DNA from: an uncultured Lactobacillus sp.
GTDB taxonomy: Bacteria > Bacillota > Bacilli > Lactobacillales > Lactobacillaceae
Direction: 5' to 3'
Length of the DNA stretch: 47,062 nt
Assembly: GCA_930989465.1 (NCBI GenBank)
Contig: CAKNLX010000005.1
Span: forward strand, 1 to 47,062
In this document: in pieces, positions 3,959-47,062 of the stretch
How positions within the stretch are numbered: the first letter of the stretch is position 1
Layout: each line of letters begins with the position of its first letter
The notes under the pieces: model-generated
Databases searched by the model: none
Seen by the model: the letters and a program-made list of their open reading frames with translations, nothing else
What the model was told of the DNA's origin: nothing
Position numbers and translations under genes: made by a program

Positions 3959-5152
3959 CTAGAAATCACCAGCGGTGCTAAACATGTAGTCTCGATTATG
4001 GAATTTCATTGATAAAATCAAACCAATACCAATCATGTTCCCTACCAAGGCTGAACCACCTTGAGAAACAAATGGTAAGGGAATACCAGTCAATGGTAAT
4101 AAATCAATGTTCATACCAATATTTTCAAATACGTGGAATAAAATCATCATAATAACACCCGTAGAAATGTATGAATAAAATGCATTTCTAGTATTAAATG
4201 AAATTTTAACCATTTGAATAATCAGGTATAAATAAATTAAAATCAAACTTACACAGCCTACAAAGCCAAAATTCTCTCCAATTACGGAGAAAACCATGTC
4301 AGACCCACGAACTGGTACATATACGCTTGCTTTACCAAAGCCATTACCAAAAAGTTGTCCTGACCCAATTGCCTTCATACTTTGCCATAACTGGTAGGCA
4401 CCTGATGATGTATCACCTGATGGATTAAGCCAAGACTTAATTCTTTCAAACTGATATGCTTGAAAGAAATGACTTAAAAACGCTTGCCCACCTGGCGTTA
4501 CCACCATTAGAATAACTGCAATTGCTCCAATGATGACTATTCCATATAGGGGAACAATAATCTTCCACGATATACCAGAAACTAAAACTACACCACCAAC
4601 AATTGCGATAAATACTAGCATAGTACCAAAGTCGTTCTGCAACTTTAATAAAATCGCTACGGGTGCAAGCCATGCAACTATTTTACCTAACAATAGCCAA
4701 TCTGATTTAATGGTATGACCATATTTATCGTTATGATCCTTAACTACGCGTGCCAACATCAAGATAAATGCTGGCTTCATTATTTCAGATGGCTGAAAAG
4801 TAACAGGTCCTAACTTGAACCAACTCTTTGCCCCAGTATCCGCTGCAACACTACGATTATAGAAGAACAAAACCGCTATTAACAAGAATATTCCTATTCC
4901 GAAAAATATTGGTGCTATCTTAAATAATTGCTCTGCATCAAACTGCATTACAATTACAACAATTACAATAGAAATCAAATACCATAATGCTTGCATAACT
5001 ACAGCTTTAACAGGTGAACCAATGTGACTTGGATCTCCAAGTGCAGCTATATAGATACAATATAGACTGATTAATACCAATAACGCCACAGGAATAATTA
5101 TATTCCATGCTAATCGGTCAATTAGACTTGTTTTGTTTTCAACTTTTGCCAT
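3959..5152 (-). CDS. rodA: Peptidoglycan glycosyltransferase RodA
   Basis: This is a SEDS-family polytopic membrane enzyme of 397 residues with about ten transmembrane helices. SEDS proteins polymerise lipid II into glycan strands together with a class B PBP; RodA serves the elongasome. Family motifs include GAKSWFKLGPVTFQPSE, QNDFGTMLVF with the catalytic Asp of the WQNDFGT-type loop, and the C-terminal GIPLPFVSQGGSALVGNMIGIG. It ends a minus-strand cluster with mreB/mbl, yidD and DUF2969, which supports RodA over FtsW. Confidence 0.93.
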   Translation of the reverse strand: MAKVENKTSLIDRLAWNIIIPVALLVLISLYCIYIAALGDPSHIGSPVKAVVMQALWYLISIVIVVIVMQFDAEQLFKIAPIFFGIGIFLLIAVLFFYNRSVAADTGAKSWFKLGPVTFQPSEIMKPAFILMLARVVKDHNDKYGHTIKSDWLLLGKIVAWLAPVAILLKLQNDFGTMLVFIAIVGGVVLVSGISWKIIVPLYGIVIIGAIAVILMVVTPGGQAFLSHFFQAYQFERIKSWLNPSGDTSSGAYQLWQSMKAIGSGQLFGNGFGKASVYVPVRGSDMVFSVIGENFGFVGCVSLILIYLYLIIQMVKISFNTRNAFYSYISTGVIMMILFHVFENIGMNIDLLPLTGIPLPFVSQGGSALVGNMIGIGLILSMKFHNRDYMFSTAGDF

Positions 5153-5173
5153 TAAATAATCACTACTTATATT

Positions 5174-5401
5174 TTATTTTTCATGCAATGTAAAGTATGA
5201 AAGTAAGTCATTAATACTGCTTTCTAGACTGTTAGCAAATAATACATTGCTACTCTTAGTCGTAGTAGCGCGATAACGACCTTCAACTTTTTCGATTAAA
5301 CCAATGGACTTCTTGTTAGGAATAATAACTTCCCAAGTTGGTAAATTCTTTCCTTTAAGTTCATTAACTTCAATATCAATATTTTCTAACTTTTTAGACA
5401 T
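5174..5401 (-). CDS. DUF2969 family protein
   Basis: This is a 75-residue soluble protein matching the small DUF2969 family of lactobacilli. Conserved features are the N-terminal KLENIDIEVNELKGKNLPTWEVIIPNKKSIGLIEKVEGRY region and a helical C-terminus. No function is known. It lies 22 bases upstream of rodA and eight bases after yidD, so it is co-transcribed with the cell-shape genes. Confidence 0.8.
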   Translation of the reverse strand: MSKKLENIDIEVNELKGKNLPTWEVIIPNKKSIGLIEKVEGRYRATTTKSSNVLFANSLESSINDLLSYFTLHEK

Positions 5402-5409
5402 AAATCCTC

Positions 5410-5703
5410 CTACTTGCTATCCGGGTGAAACTTAGATGCTATAATCTCATCTTCGTATCTCTCAGGATGTGGATTTCGAAAAACAGTAAAATTATCAGGA
5501 ACTGGGTCCACCCCACCGCGTATAAATGGGTTACATCTTAGTATACGACTAATTCCCATAATTAGCCCTAAAATTGGTCCATGTTTTTTCAAAGCATCAA
5601 TCATATAACTAGAGCACGTAGGATAATACCTACAACTCGGTGGAAATAATGGCGAAATTAGAGTCTGATAAATACGTACGATAAAAATCAAAATCTTTCG
5701 CAA
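5410..5703 (-). CDS. yidD: Membrane protein insertion efficiency factor YidD
   Basis: YidD helps YidC/SecYEG-dependent insertion of inner-membrane proteins. The 97 residues show the full family signature: an amphipathic N-terminus ([25 protein letters not shown]) with the three conserved cysteines, then [24 protein letters not shown]. It lies 13 bases downstream of mreB/mbl in the same transcription unit. Confidence 0.94.
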
Positions 5704-5716
5704 GTAATCTCCTCAC

Positions 5717-6706
5717 TTAGTGTCGTTGATGTTTTTCAATATTCTTAAGCAAAGTACCAGTACCTAAGGCTACAGCTTCCAAAGGATGGTCAGCTGTTAA
5801 AACTGGGACCTGCAAGTAATATGATATCAACTTATCAATATTCTTCAATAATGCTCCACCACCAGTAAGCATGATACCACGATCAATGATATCAGCTGAA
5901 AGTTCTGGTGGCGTAGTTTCCAATACTTCTTTAGCTGCTGCAATGATTGACATAAGACCATCTTGCAAAGCATGCTGAATTTCAGGGGCAGTAACTGTAG
6001 TTTGTTTAGGTAAGCCATCAACTACATCACGACCACGAACCTTAATTTGTTGATCTTCATCAGGTTCAAATGCACTACCGATTTCAATCTTGATTTGTTC
6101 AGCAGTTCTTGAACCGATCAATAAATTATGTTTATTCTTAATATAGCTAATAACCGCTTGATTCATACGATCACCAGCGTAGCGAAGTGAACGTGAGGTA
6201 ACAATTTCCCCCATGGACAAGACAGCAATATCGGTAGTACCACCACCGATATCAATAACCATATTACCTTGTGGTTTAAAAATATCAAGTCCTGCACCTA
6301 CTGCAGCTACCTTAGGTTCGAAATCAAGGTAAACCTTACCGCCACCTGATTTTTCTGCTGCTTGAATAATAGCCTTTTGTTCAATCGAAGTAACTCCTGT
6401 AGGAGCACAGATTAAAATATTAGGCTTAGACATAAAACCTTTTACATTTAATTTTTCAATAAAGTATGACAGCATTTCCTCTGTAATATCGAAGTCCGCA
6501 ATTACACCGTTCTTCAAGGGGCGAATTACGCGAATATTACCTGGGGTTCTTCCTACCATTTCATATGCCTCTGAGCCAACTGCTACTACTTTATTTGTAT
6601 CAGTATTAACAGCAACTACAGATGGTTCATTTAAAACAATCCCTTTTCCAGAGACATTGATTAGTACATTAGCTGTTCCTAAATCAATTCCTATATCTCG
6701 TGCCAC
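5717..6706 (-). CDS. mreB: Rod shape-determining actin homologue (MreB/Mbl)
   Basis: This 329-residue actin-fold ATPase organises lateral cell-wall synthesis under the membrane. Phosphate-1 motif DIGIDLGTANVLI is at the N-terminus, the phosphate-2 motif is VIDIGGGTTDIAV near residue 152, and the adenosine motif is GIMLTGGGALLKNID near residue 277. The location between the ATP synthase operon and yidD matches the gene often called mbl in lactobacilli. I cannot separate MreB from Mbl by eye. The gene appears to head the mreB-yidD-DUF2969-rodA unit. Confidence 0.93.
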   Translation of the reverse strand: MARDIGIDLGTANVLINVSGKGIVLNEPSVVAVNTDTNKVVAVGSEAYEMVGRTPGNIRVIRPLKNGVIADFDITEEMLSYFIEKLNVKGFMSKPNILICAPTGVTSIEQKAIIQAAEKSGGGKVYLDFEPKVAAVGAGLDIFKPQGNMVIDIGGGTTDIAVLSMGEIVTSRSLRYAGDRMNQAVISYIKNKHNLLIGSRTAEQIKIEIGSAFEPDEDQQIKVRGRDVVDGLPKQTTVTAPEIQHALQDGLMSIIAAAKEVLETTPPELSADIIDRGIMLTGGGALLKNIDKLISYYLQVPVLTADHPLEAVALGTGTLLKNIEKHQRH

Positions 6707-7534: not shown

Positions 7535-9959
<2,425 letters not shown>

Positions 9960-39398: not shown

Positions 39399-39436
39399 AA
39401 AGTCTTGCTAGGAATCATATCCTAGCAAGACTTTTA
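39399..39436. terminator. Strong terminator outside E2's left end
   Basis: AAAAGTCTTGCTAGGA and TCCTAGCAAGACTTTT form a perfect 16-bp stem around ATCATA. It lies just beyond the tmRNA/tRNA-like 3' end, so it is probably the displaced terminator of that RNA gene, as seen for E1. Confidence 0.85.
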
Positions 39437-39444
39437 CTATTGTA

Positions 39445-39466
39445 TGGAGATGAGGGGGTTTAGAAA
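39445..39466. repeat. E2 candidate attL: 3' end of tmRNA or tRNA-Ala
   Basis: The minus strand reads ...CCCCCTCATCTCCA, like the T-stem, acceptor 3' half and discriminator A of an RNA gene. The base at position 70 would be U, the alanine identity partner of G3, fitting tmRNA (ssrA) or tRNA-Ala. The intact gene would lie at E2's right end, outside the window. Confidence 0.45.
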
Positions 39467-39517
39467 TTAGCCCCCGTCCGTACTTTAATATCAACGGTTT
39501 TGGAGCTTCACTAAAAA

Positions 39518-39538
39518 ATATGAAGTCGCATATGAAGT
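39518..39538. repeat. E2 candidate integrase arm-type sites
   Basis: ATATGAAGT occurs at 39518-39526 and 39530-39538, a 12-bp period, just before the integrase stop. This mirrors the E1 pair at 19603-19625 in place and spacing, not in sequence. Confidence 0.4.
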
Positions 39539-39545
39539 TTTTTTC

Positions 39546-40697
39546 CTATGATTCCATGTAATTAGCAAAGTCTATAGCCGTTTCTTTGGCTTTCTTTTTA
39601 GTTACATGAGTATAAATATTCATGGTCGTTGTTATATCTGAATGTCCTAGACGTTCCTTAACGTCTTTCATTGATACACCAGCATCAAACAATAAAGAGG
39701 CGTGCGTATGTCTAAAGCCGTGGACTTTAATATGTCGTAATTCAAACTTCTTACAAATAGCATTATCCCACCGTTGAGGTTTAGATAGGACGGTATAGTT
39801 ACCCTCGCTATTGGCAAAAACTAAATTATCATTGCTAAGAAAATTCAAGCCTAGTTTTAGCATTTCTTTTTGTTGTTTGGTTCGCCACTGTTTCAAATAA
39901 CGCATCGTTTCAGCATCCATATCTAGGCTTCTAACACTGTTACTAGTCTTACATGGAGAAAGATACAGGCGGTTATTTTCGCCACTAGCTAAAGACTTGT
40001 TAATGTCTATTGTATTGTTCTTAAAATCAATATCAGACCATTTAAGGGCTAGACACTCGCCTTTGCGCATCCCTGAATAAGCTAACAGCCTAAAGAACAT
40101 AAAATATCTAAAGTTGTACCCTTTAGCATCGTTTAAGAACGTATTGAGTTCATCTTTAGAATAAAAGTTATCAAATTTCTTGTTGTCTCTTTCAATTTTA
40201 GGCAAGATAACTTTCTTCATAGGGTTCTTTTTCATTAATTCCATAGTGATACCGTAATTAATCAACTTAGAAGCATAGAAAACGAACCGCTTAAACGTTT
40301 TAGGCGCTACATCCGCCCACGTATTTACCGCCCTTTGACATTGAGAAACGGTCAACTTGTTTAGATAGGTGCTTCCTAGTTGTTTAAGAATATGATTTTT
40401 AAATATCTTTTCGGTTGAAACAAAAGTGCTTTCTTGCACCGTTCTTTTGTACAGTTTGACCCACATCTTATATAGATCATTTAGGCGTAGCTTGCGCTTA
40501 GTAACTGGGACATACTCGCCCTTAACTACCTTTAGCCTGTAATTTAGGTAGCATTCTAGGGCTTGCTTTTCAGTTTTAAAGCCTTGCTTCTTAACCTGAA
40601 TTGTTCTTCCTGTAGTTTCATCTTTACCGACATAAATTAAAAACTTGTATCGTTTTTCGCCACTAGGCGTGGTGTATTCCTTAATATCGTTATTCAT
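39546..40697 (-). CDS. int: E2 tyrosine integrase
   Basis: The 383-residue phage integrase has an AP2-like arm-binding N-terminus (EKRYKFLIYVGKDETTGRTIQVKKQGFKTEKQALECY), a core-binding domain, and a catalytic domain. Catalytic Arg is in YSGMRKGECLALKWSDI, His-x-x-Arg in VHGFRHTHASLLFDAG, and the Tyr in MNIYTHV. The first nine residues (MNNDIKEYT) match E1's integrase exactly, yet the target gene differs. AGAGG precedes the ATG. Confidence 0.95.
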   Translation of the reverse strand: MNNDIKEYTTPSGEKRYKFLIYVGKDETTGRTIQVKKQGFKTEKQALECYLNYRLKVVKGEYVPVTKRKLRLNDLYKMWVKLYKRTVQESTFVSTEKIFKNHILKQLGSTYLNKLTVSQCQRAVNTWADVAPKTFKRFVFYASKLINYGITMELMKKNPMKKVILPKIERDNKKFDNFYSKDELNTFLNDAKGYNFRYFMFFRLLAYSGMRKGECLALKWSDIDFKNNTIDINKSLASGENNRLYLSPCKTSNSVRSLDMDAETMRYLKQWRTKQQKEMLKLGLNFLSNDNLVFANSEGNYTVLSKPQRWDNAICKKFELRHIKVHGFRHTHASLLFDAGVSMKDVKERLGHSDITTTMNIYTHVTKKKAKETAIDFANYMES

Positions 40698-40718
40698 TAG
40701 TTATTAACCTCTTTTCGA

Positions 40719-40755
40719 TTGTTGGCGCAAACGAGCTAATCAAAGGTTTCTAATT
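40719..40755 (+). repeat. E2 GCTAATC-type repeat, copy 1 (upstream of int)
   Basis: The 37 bases starting TTGTTGGCGCAAACGAGCTA match 44000-44036 at 34 of 37 positions by eye. The core G-x-GCTAATC-xxAGG also occurs in the E1 repeats. Confidence 0.75.
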
Positions 40756-40840
40756 GAATAACTATCTTTCCCTAAAACTAATAAAACCTCATATATTCGG
40801 CTAATTCGGCCGCCCTAAAAAGCTATCTTTGAGGGATGCT

Positions 40841-41461
40841 TTACTTTTTTAAGCTTTGAAGCTTCTCAGATAGTTCATCTATTTTCATATAAACATCTTG
40901 AAAAAGAGCATCTAGTTGTGTTTGTATTTCGAAATTTCTATCTTCATCATTTGTAAACTTAATTTTACTTATTTGAGCGCTTGCGCGTTCCGCACCGCTT
41001 CCAATAAGAATTGCTATTTCATTTTCAAAACGTCCATCTGTTAAGCTCTTTTTATCAAATTTTGACAAAAAAGGTATTCTAGTTATCAAGGGAACATATT
41101 CTAAAATTAACTTTTTTGCTAATTCTTTATTATGCATAGCACTTTTTATTGTGCTTTCACTAACTTCATAAAATTTTAGATGATCTATCAATATTCTATG
41201 CATATTGAAATCAAAATACCCACAAGAACCATTTAGCCAACCTACAAGCATATTCACAGCATCATTTTCTGAAATAGTTATACCTTGAATGTATGGAATG
41301 GGTACATTAAAAAAATCAGCTAGTTTTTGCCATGTTTCGAGTTTGGGTTCACGTTTTCCCGTTTCATATTGGCTTAATCTGCTACTACTCATATTTATTT
41401 TTTCACCTAATGCTCTAAGCGTTAGATTATTTTTTTGCCTTAATTCTTTTATTCGATTCAT
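40841..41461 (-). CDS. E2 CI-like repressor (XRE HTH)
   Basis: The 206-residue protein has an N-terminal XRE HTH (MNRIKELRQKNNLTLRALGEKINMSSSRLSQYETGKREPKLETWQKLADFFNV). Its remaining part is helical and I see no S24 peptidase dyad, so it may be released by a helper factor and not by RecA. It is not close to the E1 repressor beyond the HTH and the linker (PIPYIQGI vs VPYLQGI). AAGGAGGTG precedes the ATG. It diverges from the early operon over GTTAGC operators. Confidence 0.85.
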   Translation of the reverse strand: MNRIKELRQKNNLTLRALGEKINMSSSRLSQYETGKREPKLETWQKLADFFNVPIPYIQGITISENDAVNMLVGWLNGSCGYFDFNMHRILIDHLKFYEVSESTIKSAMHNKELAKKLILEYVPLITRIPFLSKFDKKSLTDGRFENEIAILIGSGAERASAQISKIKFTNDEDRNFEIQTQLDALFQDVYMKIDELSEKLQSLKK

Positions 41462-41498
41462 AAAATCACCTCCTTATACTCAAAAATATATTAACATA

Positions 41499-41583
41499 TT
41501 AGCTAACAAAATGTGAAAAAATATATTGACATTCACAAAGCGTTAGCATATTATTTTAGGTGTTAGCTAACAAATCGTTAGCA
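41499..41583. promoter_or_regulatory. E2 switch region: early promoter and GTTAGC operators
   Basis: The early promoter has TTGACA (41526-41531), 17 bp, then TATTAT (41549-41554). Operator-like sequences are TTAGCTAAC (41499-41507), CGTTAGCA (41541-41548, inside the spacer), TGTTAGCTAACA (41561-41572, a 12-bp palindrome) and CGTTAGCA (41576-41583). The first lies where the divergent repressor promoter should be. Confidence 0.75.
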
Positions 41584-41598
41584 AAAAGAGGTGAAAAC

Positions 41599-41817
41599 AT
41601 GAAATTAACAGATCAACAAGTTACAGCAATTAAGCGTAAACGTGGTGAACTTGATTTATCTATTGTGGGCTTAGCTAATGCTACTGGCGTTAGCAAGTGG
41701 ACATTAATCGACATCTTCAAGCACGATCACCGTAACGTTAATTCAGCAACTTTTAAGAAGTTAAATGATTGGTTGATTAATCAATATAACCATGATCTTG
41801 TAAAGGAGGTGAACTAA
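41599..41817 (+). CDS. E2 Cro-like HTH protein
   Basis: The 72-residue protein is a compact HTH (IKRKRGELDLSIVGLANATGVSKWTLIDIFKHDHRNVNSATFKKLNDWL), first in the early operon, so it could play a Cro-like role at the GTTAGC sites. I start it at 41599 behind AGAGGTG; the operators lie directly upstream. Function is inferred from fold and position. Confidence 0.7.
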   Translation: MKLTDQQVTAIKRKRGELDLSIVGLANATGVSKWTLIDIFKHDHRNVNSATFKKLNDWLINQYNHDLVKEVN

Positions 41818-42243
41818 ATGAGTGAGACTATGCAAAGCAACAAGTCGAAAGTAAGCGCACAAATGACCCTTAATCTTGACGGGTTAACGTTCCCTAACGG
41901 GGATGCAAAGCTTACTAGCAAAGAAAAACGAGTTTATGACTTGCTGCCAACTGGCAAGGAAAACGCCCGACCTAGCAGTTACTTTACTGAAATATTAGGT
42001 ATCAGTAGAAGAAACTTATCAGACGTTGTTAAGAGATTGAAATCAAAGTCCCTAGACGTTGGTAGTACACGGGATAACGGGTATTACAAGTTTAAAGACG
42101 TTCAAGAGTATTTAGACTTTATGAACCGAGATGCTCACGAACTCGCAGAAAGAAACAAGGTTCATGATGCAATGAGAACAACGCCACTAGGACGCAAACT
42201 CTTTGCAGACATGAACCAAGAATCGAAAGGAGAAAAACAATGA
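41818..42243 (+). CDS. E2 winged-helix-like protein, 141 aa
   Basis: I do not recognise the family. The middle ([61 protein letters not shown]) looks like a winged helix with a wing hairpin, so a DNA-binding role is likely. AAGGAGGTG precedes the ATG, which directly follows the previous stop. Its own stop overlaps the next start (ATGA). Confidence 0.6.
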
Positions 42244-42635
42244 CTAAATACACGCCACTAGTTAAAGACATGCAAAAAGATTTAAAGAAACAAGGCTATC
42301 ATTTCAGCCTTGAACAAACCTATCAGCATTTACTAAAAGCTAATTTTATTGATGCTGACGGTCAACCAACTAAGTGGGCTATTGAGAACGGTTATGTAGG
42401 CGTTGAATACACCTACCCACAAGGGATGCAAGCAGATCAAGGTCAAGCGGACATTATGGAAGTCCTAAACCGTCTACCGCAAAGCGCTATTCACTATAAC
42501 GACCGCCCTAATCTATCTGGGATTGATAAAGAACCACTTAAAAAGGCTATCAAACAAGCTTTACATGACAAAGTCCTATCTGCTGACGGGCGCAAGAAAT
42601 GGAAAAACATTTTAAAAGATATTGAGAGTAAATAA
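42240..42635 (+). CDS. E2 hypothetical protein, 131 aa
   Basis: It is unrecognised as a whole. The segment [36 protein letters not shown] resembles the small C-terminal domains of phage antirepressors, so an antirepressor-related role is possible. The C-terminus is Lys-rich and helical. The start overlaps the preceding stop by four bases, with AAAGGAG upstream. Confidence 0.55.
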
Positions 42636-42647
42636 AGAAGCGCAAAC

Positions 42648-42947
42648 ATGAAAGAAACAAAAATTAATGATGCAATTATTGGACTAGGTAAAGACAAAGA
42701 CCCGCTTTTTGGTTCTGTTCAATATGAACAGCCCGCAAAGCCTAACACGATTGCTACTATTCGAACTGACAAAGCAAAAATACAAATACCACTTAATCAA
42801 ATTGATTTAATTATTTTTAGATTTGGTGCTGAAACTTTTGGTTTAATCTTCAATTATCGCTTATTTATTTCTGATAATAAGAGCTTTAATTTATGGAACA
42901 GGCAAACAAAAAAGCTTGCATGCCATGAGTTACAGCCGAACTTTTAA
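42648..42947 (+). CDS. E2 hypothetical protein, 99 aa
   Basis: I do not recognise this protein. It has a Lys-rich N-terminus and a beta-strand-rich second half (IPLNQIDLIIFRFGAETFGLIFNYRLFISDN). The SD is weak. It lies in frame order with the early operon. It could be translated by coupling. Confidence 0.5.
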   Translation: MKETKINDAIIGLGKDKDPLFGSVQYEQPAKPNTIATIRTDKAKIQIPLNQIDLIIFRFGAETFGLIFNYRLFISDNKSFNLWNRQTKKLACHELQPNF

Positions 42948-42963
42948 GAAAGGAAAAAACAAA

Positions 42964-43302
42964 ATGAGAATATCAAAAAAATACTTGCTTAATAATGATG
43001 ACATTGTAAGAGTTGGTCAAAAGCTCTACGAAGTTGCGGACATGGTCAGTACACTTCCCTACACGGTAGATGCAGATTATAGCGAGGGCGACATTGCCGA
43101 AATATTCCTACATGGTAACAATAAAAAAGCAATTCCATTAGAAATAGGTGACATTGTAGCACCTATAGACGTTCCTAGTTTTGAATGTATGCGAATTGGC
43201 GACCAGTTAATGGCAACTATTGATATTAACTTTATTTCTAGTTACATCAACGAAGATCATCAAGTTATTTACTTTGAAAGGAATGTAAGCAATGAAAATT
43301 AG
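42964..43302 (+). CDS. E2 hypothetical protein, 112 aa
   Basis: This is an unrecognised acidic protein with beta-rich character (DDIVRVGQKLYEVADMVSTLPYTVDADYSEGDIAEIFL...IDVPSFECMRIGDQLMATIDINFISSYI). I start it at 42964, behind AAGAAAGGA. An earlier in-frame ATG at 42916 overlaps the previous gene. Its end overlaps a 36-aa ORF. Confidence 0.55.
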   Translation: MRISKKYLLNNDDIVRVGQKLYEVADMVSTLPYTVDADYSEGDIAEIFLHGNNKKAIPLEIGDIVAPIDVPSFECMRIGDQLMATIDINFISSYINEDHQVIYFERNVSNEN

Positions 43303-43402
43303 TTTAGATGATGACAGTAAACAAGTTAACCATGACTTTGATAAGCTTACGAATGGTCTTTACTCAAACAGAGGTTTTAGCTATGAAACGACATTTAACT
43401 AA
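43292..43402 (+). CDS. E2 small ORF, 36 aa
   Basis: MKISLDDDSKQVNHDFDKL begins a 36-residue peptide with AAAGGA nine bases upstream. It overlaps the end of the previous gene and the start of the next (43383), the tight packing typical of phage early operons. No function can be proposed. Confidence 0.4.
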   Translation: MKISLDDDSKQVNHDFDKLTNGLYSNRGFSYETTFN

Positions 43403-43649
43403 TTTTATTAGCTATGAAGTTAATGAGATTGAAATTATTGAATCTCAAACAAAAGAAATTAAAAAGACAAATAGAGCCATTACGCTTTTAGCAAAAGCTA
43501 TGCTCTTTTATATAAAGCATCATTCGAACATTGATAAACAGACGGTTAATTGTGCTATTTCATTTCTTAATAGTCAAAATGCTAAGACCGATAATGAAAT
43601 AAGCAAAATAGAACTTCTTACTAATGATATTAAGAAAAGAGTGAATTAA
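43383..43649 (+). CDS. E2 helical hypothetical protein, 88 aa
   Basis: This unrecognised helical, charged protein (MKRHLTNFISYEVNEIEIIESQTKEIKKTNRAITLLAKAMLFYIKHHSN) has heptad-like patterns. I start it at the ATG at 43383 with AGAGG upstream. The same frame open from 43308 lacks a good SD. Confidence 0.5.
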   Translation: MKRHLTNFISYEVNEIEIIESQTKEIKKTNRAITLLAKAMLFYIKHHSNIDKQTVNCAISFLNSQNAKTDNEISKIELLTNDIKKRVN

Positions 43650-43651
43650 AC

Positions 43652-43972
43652 ATGCAAGTTACTTTAGATGATAAACAGAAAGCAGAAATTAAAGCGCTGA
43701 TATTCTCTACTGTTAAAGAGGGTATTCAGCAAGCCATTAACACTCGCCCTTATTTGAACCGCAAGGACATTGCAAAATATTTTGGCGTTGCTGAATCAAC
43801 TATTACATATTGGGCTTCTTTAGGAATGCCAGTAGCAATCATTGACGGTCGCAAACTGTATGGAAAGCAAAGCATAACTCAATGGTTAAAAGATCATGAA
43901 ATGCCCTCACAAAAGGCACAAGAGCAAACAAAAAAGCCCTCAACTATTGGAGTAGTTAAGGGCAACAAGTAA
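43652..43972 (+). CDS. E2 HTH DNA-binding protein, shared with E1
   Basis: The 106-residue MerR/excisionase-like winged-helix protein is nearly identical to the E1 protein at 22,252 over residues 35-90 (YLNRKDIAKYFGVAESTITYWASLGMPVAIIDGRKLYGKQSITQWLK). The DNA is also closely similar there. It has a longer C-terminus (QEQTKKPSTIGVVKGNK). It is last before the GCTAATC repeat and the initiator gene, as in E1. The SD is weak, so coupling to the gene two bases upstream is likely. Confidence 0.75.
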   Translation: MQVTLDDKQKAEIKALIFSTVKEGIQQAINTRPYLNRKDIAKYFGVAESTITYWASLGMPVAIIDGRKLYGKQSITQWLKDHEMPSQKAQEQTKKPSTIGVVKGNK

Positions 43973-43999
43973 AAATGTTAAGCCAATGATTTAATTATT

Positions 44000-44036
44000 T
44001 TGTTGGCGCAAAAGAGCTAATCAAAGGCTTTTAATT
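44000..44036 (+). repeat. E2 GCTAATC-type repeat, copy 2 (upstream of the initiator gene)
   Basis: This second copy of the 37-base repeat lies 49 bases before the replication initiator ATG. It is followed by TTTTGAGGGATGCTTT (44047-44062), which has a near copy at 40828-40843. Confidence 0.75.
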
Positions 44037-44084
44037 AGAGCATTCCTTTTGAGGGATGCTTTTTTACTAGATAGGTGGTGAATT

Positions 44085-45365
44085 ATGAAAAATCCTAATC
44101 TCAAAATACCGTTAGTTTTGATTAATAACGGCTTACCTATCCTCGTTATCTTAGTATACAGCGAGTTAAACGGTTTATACAGTAAAAATAATCAATGCTA
44201 CATTACAGATAAGGAACTATCTAGACGGCTTAACAGATCTGAAAGAAGCATTCAAAGGGCTATGCATGAACTTAGAAATTACGATTTAATTAAGACTAAA
44301 CAAAAGCCAAACTACAAAGGACGGTTTATTACTGTAACACCTGTAGACATGAATAAATTTTTGCTAATCCCTGTTAAGGTCATTAGAAGCAAAGATTTAA
44401 GTTTAGGCGCTTTACTGGTGTACAGCTCTTTATATTCAAGACATCATAAACAAATAAAAATCAATGCTGACAAACACAAAGAAGATGCTCCATTGATTAT
44501 ATCTGTTACAAAATCAGAATTAGCTAATGAGTTAAATAAAAGCGTGCGAGCTGTTCAATATCAGTTAAGAGAATTAGAAAATAAGCATTATATTCAAATT
44601 GATTGCTTTACTGGGATTAATCTTGAAATAGTTCTAGTTCCTATTAAAAATCTTGTAGATAACTCTCAAAAAGGTGGACGTCCAAAAAATGACCCTAGCA
44701 AAAAATGTCGTACCACCCTAGCAAAAAATGTCGTACGAGGTAAGCAAAAAATGTCGTACCACCCTAGCAAAAAATGTCCAACTAATAAATATCTAATAGA
44801 TAATATTAATAAAGGAGATGATTTGTCATCATCTTCTTCTAATAAAGATCAACGGGGCGCAGTTGACCCCTTTGACCCGTTTGAAGTTGGCGAACCATTA
44901 AAAGAGCCTGTATATTATGACAGCATCCCTAACGATGATGAAATGCCACCTAAAACAAATAATGCTGAAACTTCTAAGGACATAGCGGAACTTAATACCC
45001 TAGATATTCAAAATGCTACTCAACACAAAACTAGCCCTATAACTGGGAAAAGTGGTTCAGAAAGTGGAAACAAGTATATAGATAGATCAACTAAGCCCAC
45101 AAGAAAGAAATATCATGCATACAACGGCTTCAATCTTGATTATCAAGTTGACCAGTTACGCAAAATGTTAAACAGCAAAACAAACAAGCGCTATATTATC
45201 ACGTCTCAACAAATTCCATTAATTGAGCAACGATTAAAAGACGGTTTCACCCTGTATGACTTTGAAAGAGCTATTGATTATCTTGTTCAGCAAAAACAAT
45301 CAATATCAGTTAAAGAGCTAGTGATAAACATTAGTAATTATCTAAATAAAATTAATTCGAATTAG
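44085..45365 (+). CDS. E2 replication initiator with tandem winged helices
   Basis: The 426-residue protein has two winged-helix domains, at about residues 18-75 (LVYSELNGLYSKNNQCYITDKELSRRLNRSERSIQRAMHEL) and 110-175 (LVYSSLYSRH...SVTKSELANELNKSVRAVQYQLREL), with a Gly/Lys linker. A disordered acidic middle and a C-terminal helical domain (YITSQQIPLIEQRLKDGFTLYDFERAIDYLV) follow. The layout fits phage replisome organisers or RepA-type initiators. Four 23-bp iterons lie within its coding sequence. AGGTGG precedes the ATG. Confidence 0.75.
   Translation: MKNPNLKIPLVLINNGLPILVILVYSELNGLYSKNNQCYITDKELSRRLNRSERSIQRAMHELRNYDLIKTKQKPNYKGRFITVTPVDMNKFLLIPVKVIRSKDLSLGALLVYSSLYSRHHKQIKINADKHKEDAPLIISVTKSELANELNKSVRAVQYQLRELENKHYIQIDCFTGINLEIVLVPIKNLVDNSQKGGRPKNDPSKKCRTTLAKNVVRGKQKMSYHPSKKCPTNKYLIDNINKGDDLSSSSSNKDQRGAVDPFDPFEVGEPLKEPVYYDSIPNDDEMPPKTNNAETSKDIAELNTLDIQNATQHKTSPITGKSGSESGNKYIDRSTKPTRKKYHAYNGFNLDYQVDQLRKMLNSKTNKRYIITSQQIPLIEQRLKDGFTLYDFERAIDYLVQQKQSISVKELVINISNYLNKINSN
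44697..44782 (+). repeat. E2 origin iterons, four copies at a 23-bp period
   Basis: AGCAAAAAATGTCGTAC starts at 44697, 44720 and 44743, and with two changes at 44766 (AGCAAAAAATGTCCAAC). The period is exactly 23 bp. It is followed by a very AT-rich stretch (44783-44815), a candidate unwinding element. The array codes for the linker of the initiator in three successive reading frames. Confidence 0.85.
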
Positions 45366-45375
45366 TTTAATTTAA

Positions 45376-45412
45376 AAGGCGACTGTATTAATTTACAGCC
45401 GTCTTATTTTTA
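45376..45412. terminator. Terminator after the E2 initiator gene
   Basis: AAGGCGACTGTA and TACAGCCGTCTT arms form an imperfect stem followed by a T-rich run, ten bases after the stop codon. Confidence 0.6.
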
Positions 45413-45495
45413 TGATGCTTAGAAATGCCGACATAGTCAGCCCCTAAAAAGGGATGCAATTAATATCAATGCTGACATCGAGTTTCTACGATGAT

Positions 45496-46179
45496 TTAGT
45501 TTGAACTCGTTGAATAATTAATTTGTTTAGGGTTTGGACTGTTCAAAGATTCATCTAGTAAATGCTCCAATTTATCACGGTTTGAGCAATTAGCAAGAGC
45601 TTGTTTTTTAGCATCCATGAAAGATATATCAGAACGAGCTTGTAAAAGAGTGATATACAAGTTTACCGTTTGCCAATACGTCAACGAACTTAAAAAGCTT
45701 GCTAAATTATCCATTTTGGGCGTATCTAGGGCTTTTTTAGTACTTTCAGCATCAACTACACCATTATCAAGATAAATCACTGGGAACACGTTGTAATACT
45801 GTTGAGCTGATATAAACGCCTTGTAAAACTCTAACAATGCATCATTCTTTTTTAAATAATAAGTGTGCAAGCAATAGCCCACTTCATCCGCTATCTGCTG
45901 ACTTGGTAAAAAGCCGTCAAAATATTTAAGCGTTAGTATTTTCTTAAATGGATGCTTCTTAGTATCCGACAAGCCTTGAAATGCCTTTGCTACGCTATAG
46001 ACAATTCTAATCATGTTTCTTGTATCGCTTGAAATTGACCCCTTATTCAAGTAGCTTGCTAGGCTATCTTCTTTTAGAGTTAGTATCCACTCACGTTGCA
46101 TCCCTGTTGAATAAATATAATTATCAAGATCATATTCAAGAAACCTATTAATATTTTTCGCTAGTTCATGTTTATTCAT
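45496..46179 (-). CDS. E2 ArpU-like regulator, long form
   Basis: The 227-residue protein's middle matches the ArpU/late-regulator pattern: HPFKKILTLKYFDGFLPSQQIADEVGYCLHTYYLKKNDALLEFYKAF, a sigma-like HTH. N-terminal (1-90) and C-terminal (150-227) extensions are not seen in the other two ArpU-like proteins here. AGGA precedes the ATG. It is transcribed toward the initiator gene, the same relative orientation as the E1 ArpU-like gene. Confidence 0.6.
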   Translation of the reverse strand: MNKHELAKNINRFLEYDLDNYIYSTGMQREWILTLKEDSLASYLNKGSISSDTRNMIRIVYSVAKAFQGLSDTKKHPFKKILTLKYFDGFLPSQQIADEVGYCLHTYYLKKNDALLEFYKAFISAQQYYNVFPVIYLDNGVVDAESTKKALDTPKMDNLASFLSSLTYWQTVNLYITLLQARSDISFMDAKKQALANCSNRDKLEHLLDESLNSPNPKQINYSTSSN

Positions 46180-46200
46180 TTTTTCATCCTGACATTTCTA

Positions 46201-46250
46201 ACACCTTAAAAAGCATAGTGACATTAATGACACCTTAAAAAAGAAGATAT
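46201..46250 (+). repeat. E2 right-end repeat family, left block
   Basis: ACACCTTAAAAA starts at 46201 and again at 46230, a 29-bp spacing, each followed by related sequence. The same unit recurs at 46863-46975, on the other side of the ArpU-like gene. TTTTGCGCAG at 46258-46267 also has a partner near 46998-47007. Confidence 0.6.
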
Positions 46251-46429
46251 ACGTAATTTTGCGCAGATATATTTTTAATATGCTGACACAATAATTAAAG
46301 CGATTATTTATTGAGTTAATAGCATTTTAAAGGCTAGTATTTTGCTAATATATTGATATTAACGGGCTATATTTAATCTAGTTAAAAATTTCTAAAAACA
46401 GGTTTATTGAAAATAGTGAGTGTGAATGT

Positions 46430-46861
46430 ATGACAGAAACAATGAACGTCAAAAAGTTTTTAAAAGATGATTTTTGGCATTACATAAATTTAGGCGGTAT
46501 TCAATATAATCAATTATCAAGCCCACAGTTAACTTTTACACCTAATACTCATAGTTATACTAATGGGACTGAAAAACGCCTCATAGACGATATGAGCGAG
46601 GCTGAAAGAAGTACATATGTGGCAACTACAATAGTTATAGCTTTTAAAGATTGCACCGACATTGAGGGACAACGGCATAAAAGTATTTTGGAAGATTATT
46701 ATATTAAAGAGCTAACCAATCAAGCTATAGCGATTAGAGTTAATTTAAGCGATTGGAAATATAAAAAGGCTAAAAGAAAAGCGCTTGAAGAGTTTACAGA
46801 ACGATTTAATTTTTGGCGTTTAAAACGTGATTGTCCCGAATTGCCTATACTTACATGCTGA
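46430..46861 (+). CDS. E2 ArpU-like regulator, short form
   Basis: The 143-residue protein fits the ArpU family in length and pattern. MSEAERSTYVATTIVIAFKDC is followed by RHKSILEDYYIKELTNQAIAIRVNLSDWKYKKAKRKALEEFTERFNFW, with the HTH in the second half. ArpU-type proteins activate late phage operons. It lies between two blocks of ~30-bp repeats that may be its targets. The SD is weak (GTGAGTGTG). It is the last complete gene in the window. Confidence 0.65.
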   Translation: MTETMNVKKFLKDDFWHYINLGGIQYNQLSSPQLTFTPNTHSYTNGTEKRLIDDMSEAERSTYVATTIVIAFKDCTDIEGQRHKSILEDYYIKELTNQAIAIRVNLSDWKYKKAKRKALEEFTERFNFWRLKRDCPELPILTC

Positions 46862-46862
46862 A

Positions 46863-46975
46863 TCAAATAAAAGGCATAACAATAAATAATATGCAGACCT
46901 TAAAAAAGGCATAGCGACATTTGAGACACCCTAAAAAAGGCATAGCAATATTTTAGAACCTTTAAAAAGATATTC
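46863..46975 (+). repeat. E2 right-end repeat family, right block
   Basis: Three to four diverged units of about 30 bp have the consensus ACCTTAAAAAAGGCATAGC. They start near 46863 (partial), 46895, 46926 and 46955. The remaining sequence to 47062 has ACGATGCTAAGAAATGC, like 45412-45429, and no gene. Confidence 0.65.
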
Positions 46976-47062
46976 AGCAACTAAAAAACTCACTACGCAA
47001 TTTTGCGCAGTGAAACAACTTAGAACTAAATTTTACTTCATACGATGCTAAGAAATGCTAAT

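Follow-up and report, generated by a model that had tools for sequence, protein, structure and literature searches.

Why would the gene of a replication initiator carry four copies of one DNA motif at a period of 23 bp, which is not a multiple of three, so that the same bases are read in all three frames? The gene lies in a 47,062-nucleotide stretch of DNA from an uncultured Lactobacillus sp. (the window), a complete contig that ends at 47062 and leaves the far end of the surrounding mobile element outside it. From anatomy and precedent, we infer that the initiator binds the array and that replication starts there: the array is very probably the origin of an integrated Lactobacillus element, kept inside its own initiator gene, and our analysis supports the original prediction in its main point, the array as an origin. 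In the mechanism that we propose, initiator molecules would bind the four iterons, each an asymmetric site whose 5′ half would be read by the second winged helix (WH2) and whose 3′ half by the first (WH1); by binding cooperatively, they would open the adjoining AT-rich stretch; and the C-terminal domain would recruit the host helicase loader and helicase.

One motif in three reading frames

The array (44697-44788) consists of four units at an exact 23-bp period inside the initiator (rep) gene (44085-45365, plus strand; Table 1). The original prediction had described four copies of a 17-base motif at this period, and both the coordinates and Tandem Repeats Finder (44692-44778, period 23, 3.8 copies, score 139, the top score of the window) bear this out, with one correction: the 17-mers of iterons 1-3 are identical, and that of iteron 4 differs at two bases. 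The 17-base motif is real, but the regular unit is 23 bp including the flank, which reads CACCCT in copies 1 and 3. Codon offsets of 0, 2, 1 and 0 confirm that one DNA motif is translated as SKKC, LAKN, KQKM and again SKKC. The 17-mer has no site outside the array on either strand of the 47-kb window at up to 3 mismatches; at 4 mismatches, there is one extra site on the plus strand. Since a 23-bp unit is not a whole number of codons, loss or gain of a unit would shift the frame, so the array should be held at four copies (or one, or seven).

Table 1. Features of the initiator gene and of the element around it (window coordinates).
Feature	Position	Strand	Basis or remark
Initiator (Rep) gene, 426 aa: two winged helices, disordered linker, C-terminal domain	44085..45365	+	Pfam, PHROGs, AlphaFold
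WH1, residues 5-84; recognition helix about residues 53-65	44097..44336	+	AlphaFold secondary structure and confidence
WH2, residues 92-184; recognition helix about residues 154-166	44358..44636	+	AlphaFold; HTH_24
Disordered linker, residues 192-347; holds the array	44658..45125	+	pLDDT below 50
C-terminal helical domain (Phg_2220_C-like; residues 351-425 in AlphaFold)	45135..45359	+	Pfam; AlphaFold
Iteron 1	44697..44719	+	Frame 0
Iteron 2	44720..44742	+	Frame 2
Iteron 3	44743..44765	+	Frame 1
Iteron 4	44766..44788	+	Frame 0; 17-mer with two mismatches; runs into the AT-rich stretch
AT-rich stretch, proposed unwinding element; repeated TAATA words	44780..44819	+	15% GC
Hairpin, 11 pairs, 5-base loop	44812..44838	+	-5.9 kcal/mol, z -3.3
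Integrase (int)	39546-40697	-	
28-bp repeat (one free position), just upstream of int	40719-40746		
Repressor-like gene	40841-41461	-	
28-bp repeat (one free position), rep leader	44000..44027	+	
Activator-like gene	45496-46179	-	phrog_248 transcriptional activator, 4.9e-8
Activator-like gene	46430-46861	+	phrog_248 transcriptional activator, 1.9e-24

Is the repeat a property of the DNA or of the protein that it encodes? At lag 23, 52 of 69 positions are identical, whereas 5000 synonymous-codon shuffles that keep the protein average 35.4 and reach 48 at most; since even this value falls below the observed one, the peptide alone does not force the repeat. The same test led us to reject a chance repeat and, together with the spread of the copies over three frames, a protein-level repeat; a CRISPR-like array was rejected as well, with units that abut at 23 bp within an intact open reading frame. 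That a Lys-rich basic linker keeps the repeat for its residues is very improbable, even though the copies in the listed linkers repeatedly contain basic residues: the linker is predicted to be disordered, the shuffle test speaks against this reading, and the mean identity among the four copies, read in three frames, is 0.30 for the peptides but 0.94 for the DNA in the window (17-mers) and 0.74 in L007, the one relative for which DNA is at hand.

As the original prediction had it, an AT-rich stretch follows the array at once. A lower GC content is found in only 0.2% of the gene's 40-base stretches, which places this one near, not at, the gene minimum, and the corresponding trough in L007 is among the poorest 0.8% of its gene; the gene-wide GC minimum lies elsewhere in both genes, and this counts against the origin reading. 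The hairpin at the end of the stretch has a counterpart at the matching place in L007 (10 pairs, 5-base loop, -8.2 kcal/mol, z -4.5) that is built from partly different base pairs, and each is the strongest 30-nt hairpin of its gene.

The 23-bp period among relatives

Relatives were taken as the best 120 of 314 and the best 120 of 308 matches of two protein searches, giving 167 proteins with that of the window and 168 with L007. Most are metagenomic proteins that come without DNA, and iteron DNA of two-winged-helix initiators is available only from the window and L007; the named sources among the relatives listed are Lactobacillus (crispatus, amylovorus, helveticus, gallinarum). How can a DNA period be sought in proteins? 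Each distinct linker was back-translated into sets of possible bases, and the best-agreeing lag was determined. This lag is 23 in 31 of the 32 distinct linkers (168 related proteins listed; kinship ignored), with scores of 32-62; lag scores in two control regions per linker are at most 21.1. The linkers differ in their first words, of which there are eight (SKK, CKK, GKK, GQK, GTK, RTK, YQK and RQK), and L007, whose rep gene (4324-5787) is about 57% identical, has four copies at period 23 in frames 0, 2, 1 and 0, spelled in other bases. As regards the DNA period, the claim that the DNA is conserved and the protein varies is supported beyond the window; related genes that kept the peptide and lost the DNA period would have spoken against it, and the outcome is the opposite. 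The sole exception, P0052, lacks exactly 23 codons (69 nt = 3 x 23 nt, or three units) and has one copy left; assembly collapse is a possible cause because its longest contig is 2.3 kb. In P0146, the first unit is of the RTK type and the last of the GTK type, which looks like recombination inside the array.

These comparisons also bear on the idea that the array is a young expansion or a functionless relic in a decaying element. Three identical 17-mers speak for it, as does a window that ends with its contig, the far end of the element unseen; yet the rep reading frame is intact, L007 keeps period, copy number and frame order at its level of divergence, and the same period recurs across the linkers, so we regard this idea as highly implausible and retain the origin as the preferred reading.

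The linker had been portrayed as a passenger on the origin, and this is true of a part of it. Among ten chosen class representatives, mean pairwise peptide identity amounts to 0.71 in WH1, 0.63 in WH2 and 0.72 in the C-terminal domain, against 0.46 in the array and 0.23 immediately ahead of it. Only the array and the stretch that precedes it vary, within a linker predicted to be disordered, but residues 244-347 are about as conserved as WH2 (0.62 vs 0.63).

As a rule, initiators and the sites that they bind become known as single pairs. In this family, the coding sequence of the reader also contains the site, spelled out in three frames, and every metagenomic protein sequence therefore reveals much of reader and site alike. 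Combining the three frames decodes most iteron bases of each class from protein alone: the decoded window-class iteron departs from the first real unit only at the last base, two of its positions being ambiguous or poorly supported, and the decoded L007-class iteron is wrong at position 12 and ambiguous at five positions.

Where else do these genes occur? With tblastn, P0001 had no match in phages and plasmids, P0134 had none in phages, and P0122 had only five weak partial matches in plasmids; blastn against phages gave no match. Scans of viral contigs with P0001 or alignment A1 yielded 0 confirmed relatives, and the scan of genome contigs yielded one, L007. The exact 17-mer is present in 1 of 100 related genomes, its own. 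Searches of genus genomes found P0001 in 2 of 75 and alignment A2 in 7 of 75, all of them partial except in the source genome; 1 of 395 genomes of the order and 2 of 397 of the family matched, one of the latter partially. Decoded iteron patterns had 0 and 0 matches in viral contigs, and one pattern had three single matches at 1 mismatch in 75 genus genomes, none in an array; the reversed control also matched 3 genomes.

A two-winged-helix initiator and its putative sites

The presumed reader of these sites appears to be a phage-type initiator. Pfam places HTH_36 at residues 21-69 (3.1e-10), HTH_24 at 142-171 (1.4e-7) and Phg_2220_C at 361-403 (1.4e-5; 25.5 bits, below the curated cut-off of 27); Phg_2220_C is also annotated for many relatives in a precomputed domain column. 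PHROGs matches are phrog_186 (1.3e-12) and phrog_428 (3.8e-11), which represent phage DnaD-like loaders and replication initiators, and the O-like family phrog_345 matches weakly (0.0023). Neither Rep_3 nor RepA_N is among the 11 Pfam families that the window protein matches at E<=0.01. An AlphaFold model (35 aligned sequences; mean pLDDT 67.1, pTM 0.46) has three folded domains, mostly of high confidence, and the array sits in what the model presents as a flexible tether. Between the two winged helices there is a weak resemblance (22 of 74 residues identical, E 0.016 in a single comparison), and a PDB sequence search with alignment A3 gave two weak matches in the winged-helix range (0.0033 and 0.0071). 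The C-terminal domain is proposed to contact a helicase loader or the primosome.

Do domain and site change together? There are 15 WH2 helix strings, each paired with one 5′ word (P0052, which has no array, aside). Over 60 haplotypes, with kinship ignored and the P0052 haplotype kept, the normalised mutual information between WH2 and the 5′ word is 0.96 (maximum of 1000 shuffles, 0.41); it is 0.76 between WH2 and the next word, 0.49 between WH1 and the 5′ word, 0.40 between the 5′ word and the segment just downstream of the array (sorted into four coarse classes only), and 0.22, within the shuffles (maximum 0.31), between the 5′ word and the C-terminus. WH2 and the array are neighbors, and linkage contributes to their association; the downstream segment lies no farther from the array than the WH2 helix, which makes proximity by itself an improbable account of the pattern. 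The near-perfect pairing of WH2 type with the 5′ half of the site suggests, at the level of sequence, an exchangeable DNA-binding-domain-plus-origin cassette.

The part that WH1 would play, in the middle of the site, is less regular. Arg54 is present in 29 of the 32 proteins with TC-type arrays and absent from 122 of the 133 with other types (165 proteins, leaving out P0052, P0135 and P0136, which have no array or no WH1; array type read from copy 4 only). We do not claim a strict WH1 code for the 3′ half: exceptions run both ways (11 of 40 Arg54 proteins have the other array type), and Fisher's test gives p 0.053 on 25 haplotypes.

Does the site itself look like the target of a tandem reader? 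An internal dyad is borderline in the window array (p 0.093, 5-bp arms), not significant in that of L007 (p 0.793), and found at p<=0.05 in 0 of 10 decoded class consensus sites. In other initiators, a dyad is present in 14 of 20 arrays, and in 10 of 14 where one HTH domain is seen; the number of winged helices in these genes rests on Pfam, which recognizes one HTH region in 14 of 20 and none or only a weak one in 6 of 20 (BtpYZU02, L033, L034, L042, L048 and L049).

These patterns invite a longer history, which we offer tentatively, as one possible course of events. A phage-type initiator may have duplicated its winged helix and passed from a dimer on a palindrome to a tandem reader of an asymmetric iteron, as in Rep_3 plasmid initiators, with the origin kept in the gene; WH2 would specify the 5′ half, with WH1 (around Arg54) responsible for the middle-to-3′ half; the family would comprise natural specificity variants swapped as DNA-binding-domain-plus-origin cassettes; the 23-bp period would lock four copies through the frame; and most of each iteron would be decodable from the protein. 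The eight first words and 15 WH2 helix strings provide a start for testing a recognition code of winged-helix initiators, and the family may show how origins change specificity in nature.

The surrounding element and other initiators

What kind of element does this initiator serve? The gene order in the window is integrase, repressor-like gene, small genes, rep and two activator-like genes, and it is similar in L007. Pfam and PHROGs recognized no helicase-loader gene beside rep before the contig end, which is a point against the origin reading. In L007, exact 26-bp direct repeats (30-55 and 9712-9737), 9.7 kb apart, enclose the integrase, repressor-like, rep, activator-like and glycosyltransferase genes; the window has no copy of this repeat, even with 3 mismatches allowed. 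Neither a capsid nor a terminase gene was recognized among the L007 ORFs compared or searched. The L007 stretch resembles a satellite island, and a phage satellite (PICI-like) is the likely, though tentative, assignment. The two phrog_248 genes of the window are neighbors on opposite strands, and beside them (46185-46241 and 46897-46969) there are direct repeats of 28-31 bp with CCTTAAAAA words.

One feature of the element bears on a rival reading, in which the array serves control or incompatibility, through autoregulation, handcuffing or titration of the initiator, and replication really starts at another place in the element. A 28-bp repeat occurs exactly twice in each element (1302-1329 and 4234-4261 in L007), once just upstream of int and once in the rep leader, which speaks for this rival; int lies on the opposite strand, and an int leader RNA that extended as far as the repeat would be antisense to the rep leader. 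Rfam, at its gathering score, has no match in 39400-47062, the 28-bp repeats included. In Rep_3 plasmids, moreover, iterons also serve copy control (PMC5703833). We nevertheless find this rival unlikely: in many other initiators, too, AT-rich DNA comes after the array, a mid-gene array is badly placed for an operator, and a promoter scan of 43900-45500 finds no excess (7 vs 6.0 expected).

The origin reading, for its part, has company. Initiator-internal origins are already known, from lambda O, SPP1 gp38, 80alpha ORF20 and pSK41 Rep, so the idea is right but not new; the new part is the tandem winged helix, iterons with no significant dyad and a natural series of specificities. Among the matches listed in a search of open-licence literature (titles and abstract openings), there was no description of this Lactobacillus initiator family or of three-frame iterons. 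As in the known cases, direct repeats lie in coding sequence between the DNA-binding and C-terminal domains, beside an AT-rich region (15% GC here, unwinding being proposed only). Lambda shares with the window gene four iterons and an adjacent AT-rich region in mid-gene, but every lambda iteron is an inverted repeat of 18 bp to which two O proteins bind (PMC3985674, PMC7466680, PMC6022878), whereas the window array has no significant dyad and its protein has two winged helices. SPP1 oriL, in gene 38, combines direct repeats with an AT-rich DUE (PMC6316719), and helicase-loader and helicase genes lie next door, unlike in the window, where no loader was recognized; gp38 matches Phg_2220_C at 2e-20, as against the sub-threshold match of the window protein, and g38, the homologue that has been studied best, has no significant 22-24-bp period (its best lag, 18, is reached by 5 of 100 shuffles), in contrast to the exact 23 bp of the window, and this speaks against the origin reading. 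L010, a distant relative, reaches SPP1 g38 in tblastn. For 80alpha ORF20, an ori in the gene was deduced from failed complementation (PMC5499656).

The closest parallel to a cassette comes from plasmids. pSK41 rep has four Rep boxes centrally inside the gene and its ori-encoded linker is dispensable; in a pPR9 chimera, a pfam13730 DNA-binding domain and another origin replace those of pSK41, the kind of exchange that we propose for the Lactobacillus initiators (PMC5703833). pSK41 Rep, as described there, is a plasmid RepA_N protein with one N-terminal DNA-binding domain; by contrast, the window protein has two winged helices and no RepA_N match. It also differs from Rep_3 initiators such as RepE of plasmid F, lacking a Rep_3 sequence match, and the staphylococcal Rep_3 origin (pSK639) lies upstream of rep and not inside it (PMC5703833).

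How common are such arrays in other initiators? A first scan covered 21 genes: the window, L007, three genus initiators (L009-L011) and 16 phage loci (L017-L032). In 11 of them, nine without the window and L007, the best period is 22-24 bp and exceeds each of 100 codon shuffles. Other best periods are 27 in TMW1706P2, 15 in Lv-1, 16 in LL-H and 15 in Javan350; AQ113 has 27, reached by 23 of 100 shuffles; in KC5a, the period of 23 is reached by 3 of 100; and in L009, SP120 and Lc50902, a period of 15 comes first and one of 22-24 second. Among 30 further genus loci (L033-L062), where the ORF was chosen by its position and is perhaps the wrong gene in a few cases, ten have a period of 22-24 bp above 60 shuffles, two of these being the same places as L010 and L011. 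Other periods exceed the shuffles in L038 (26), L053 and L054 (28), L056 (21) and L059 (18), and the rest of the non-22-24 loci do not exceed them; the array of L051, with period 24 and all copies in frame 0, may be a protein repeat. The 22-24-bp repeats in phage initiator linkers are candidate origins to look for.

Do troughs and hairpins accompany these arrays? In 22 genes chosen for 22-24-bp arrays, the window and L007 included, the gene-wide GC minimum falls within -10 to +60 of the array end in 13 (neither the window nor L007). The strongest hairpin of the gene lies within 110 nt after the array in 10 of 22, the window and L007 among them, as against about 3 estimated for random positions; one of these ten hairpins, that of L048, overlaps its own array. 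By a more lenient measure, a hairpin in the top 5%, the count is 16 of 22, in a region that holds many windows of the scan. In phage initiators such as L017, L018 and L020, the AT-rich stretch contains TAATAGAACA-like words in steps of about 12 bp, possibly an unwinding motif.
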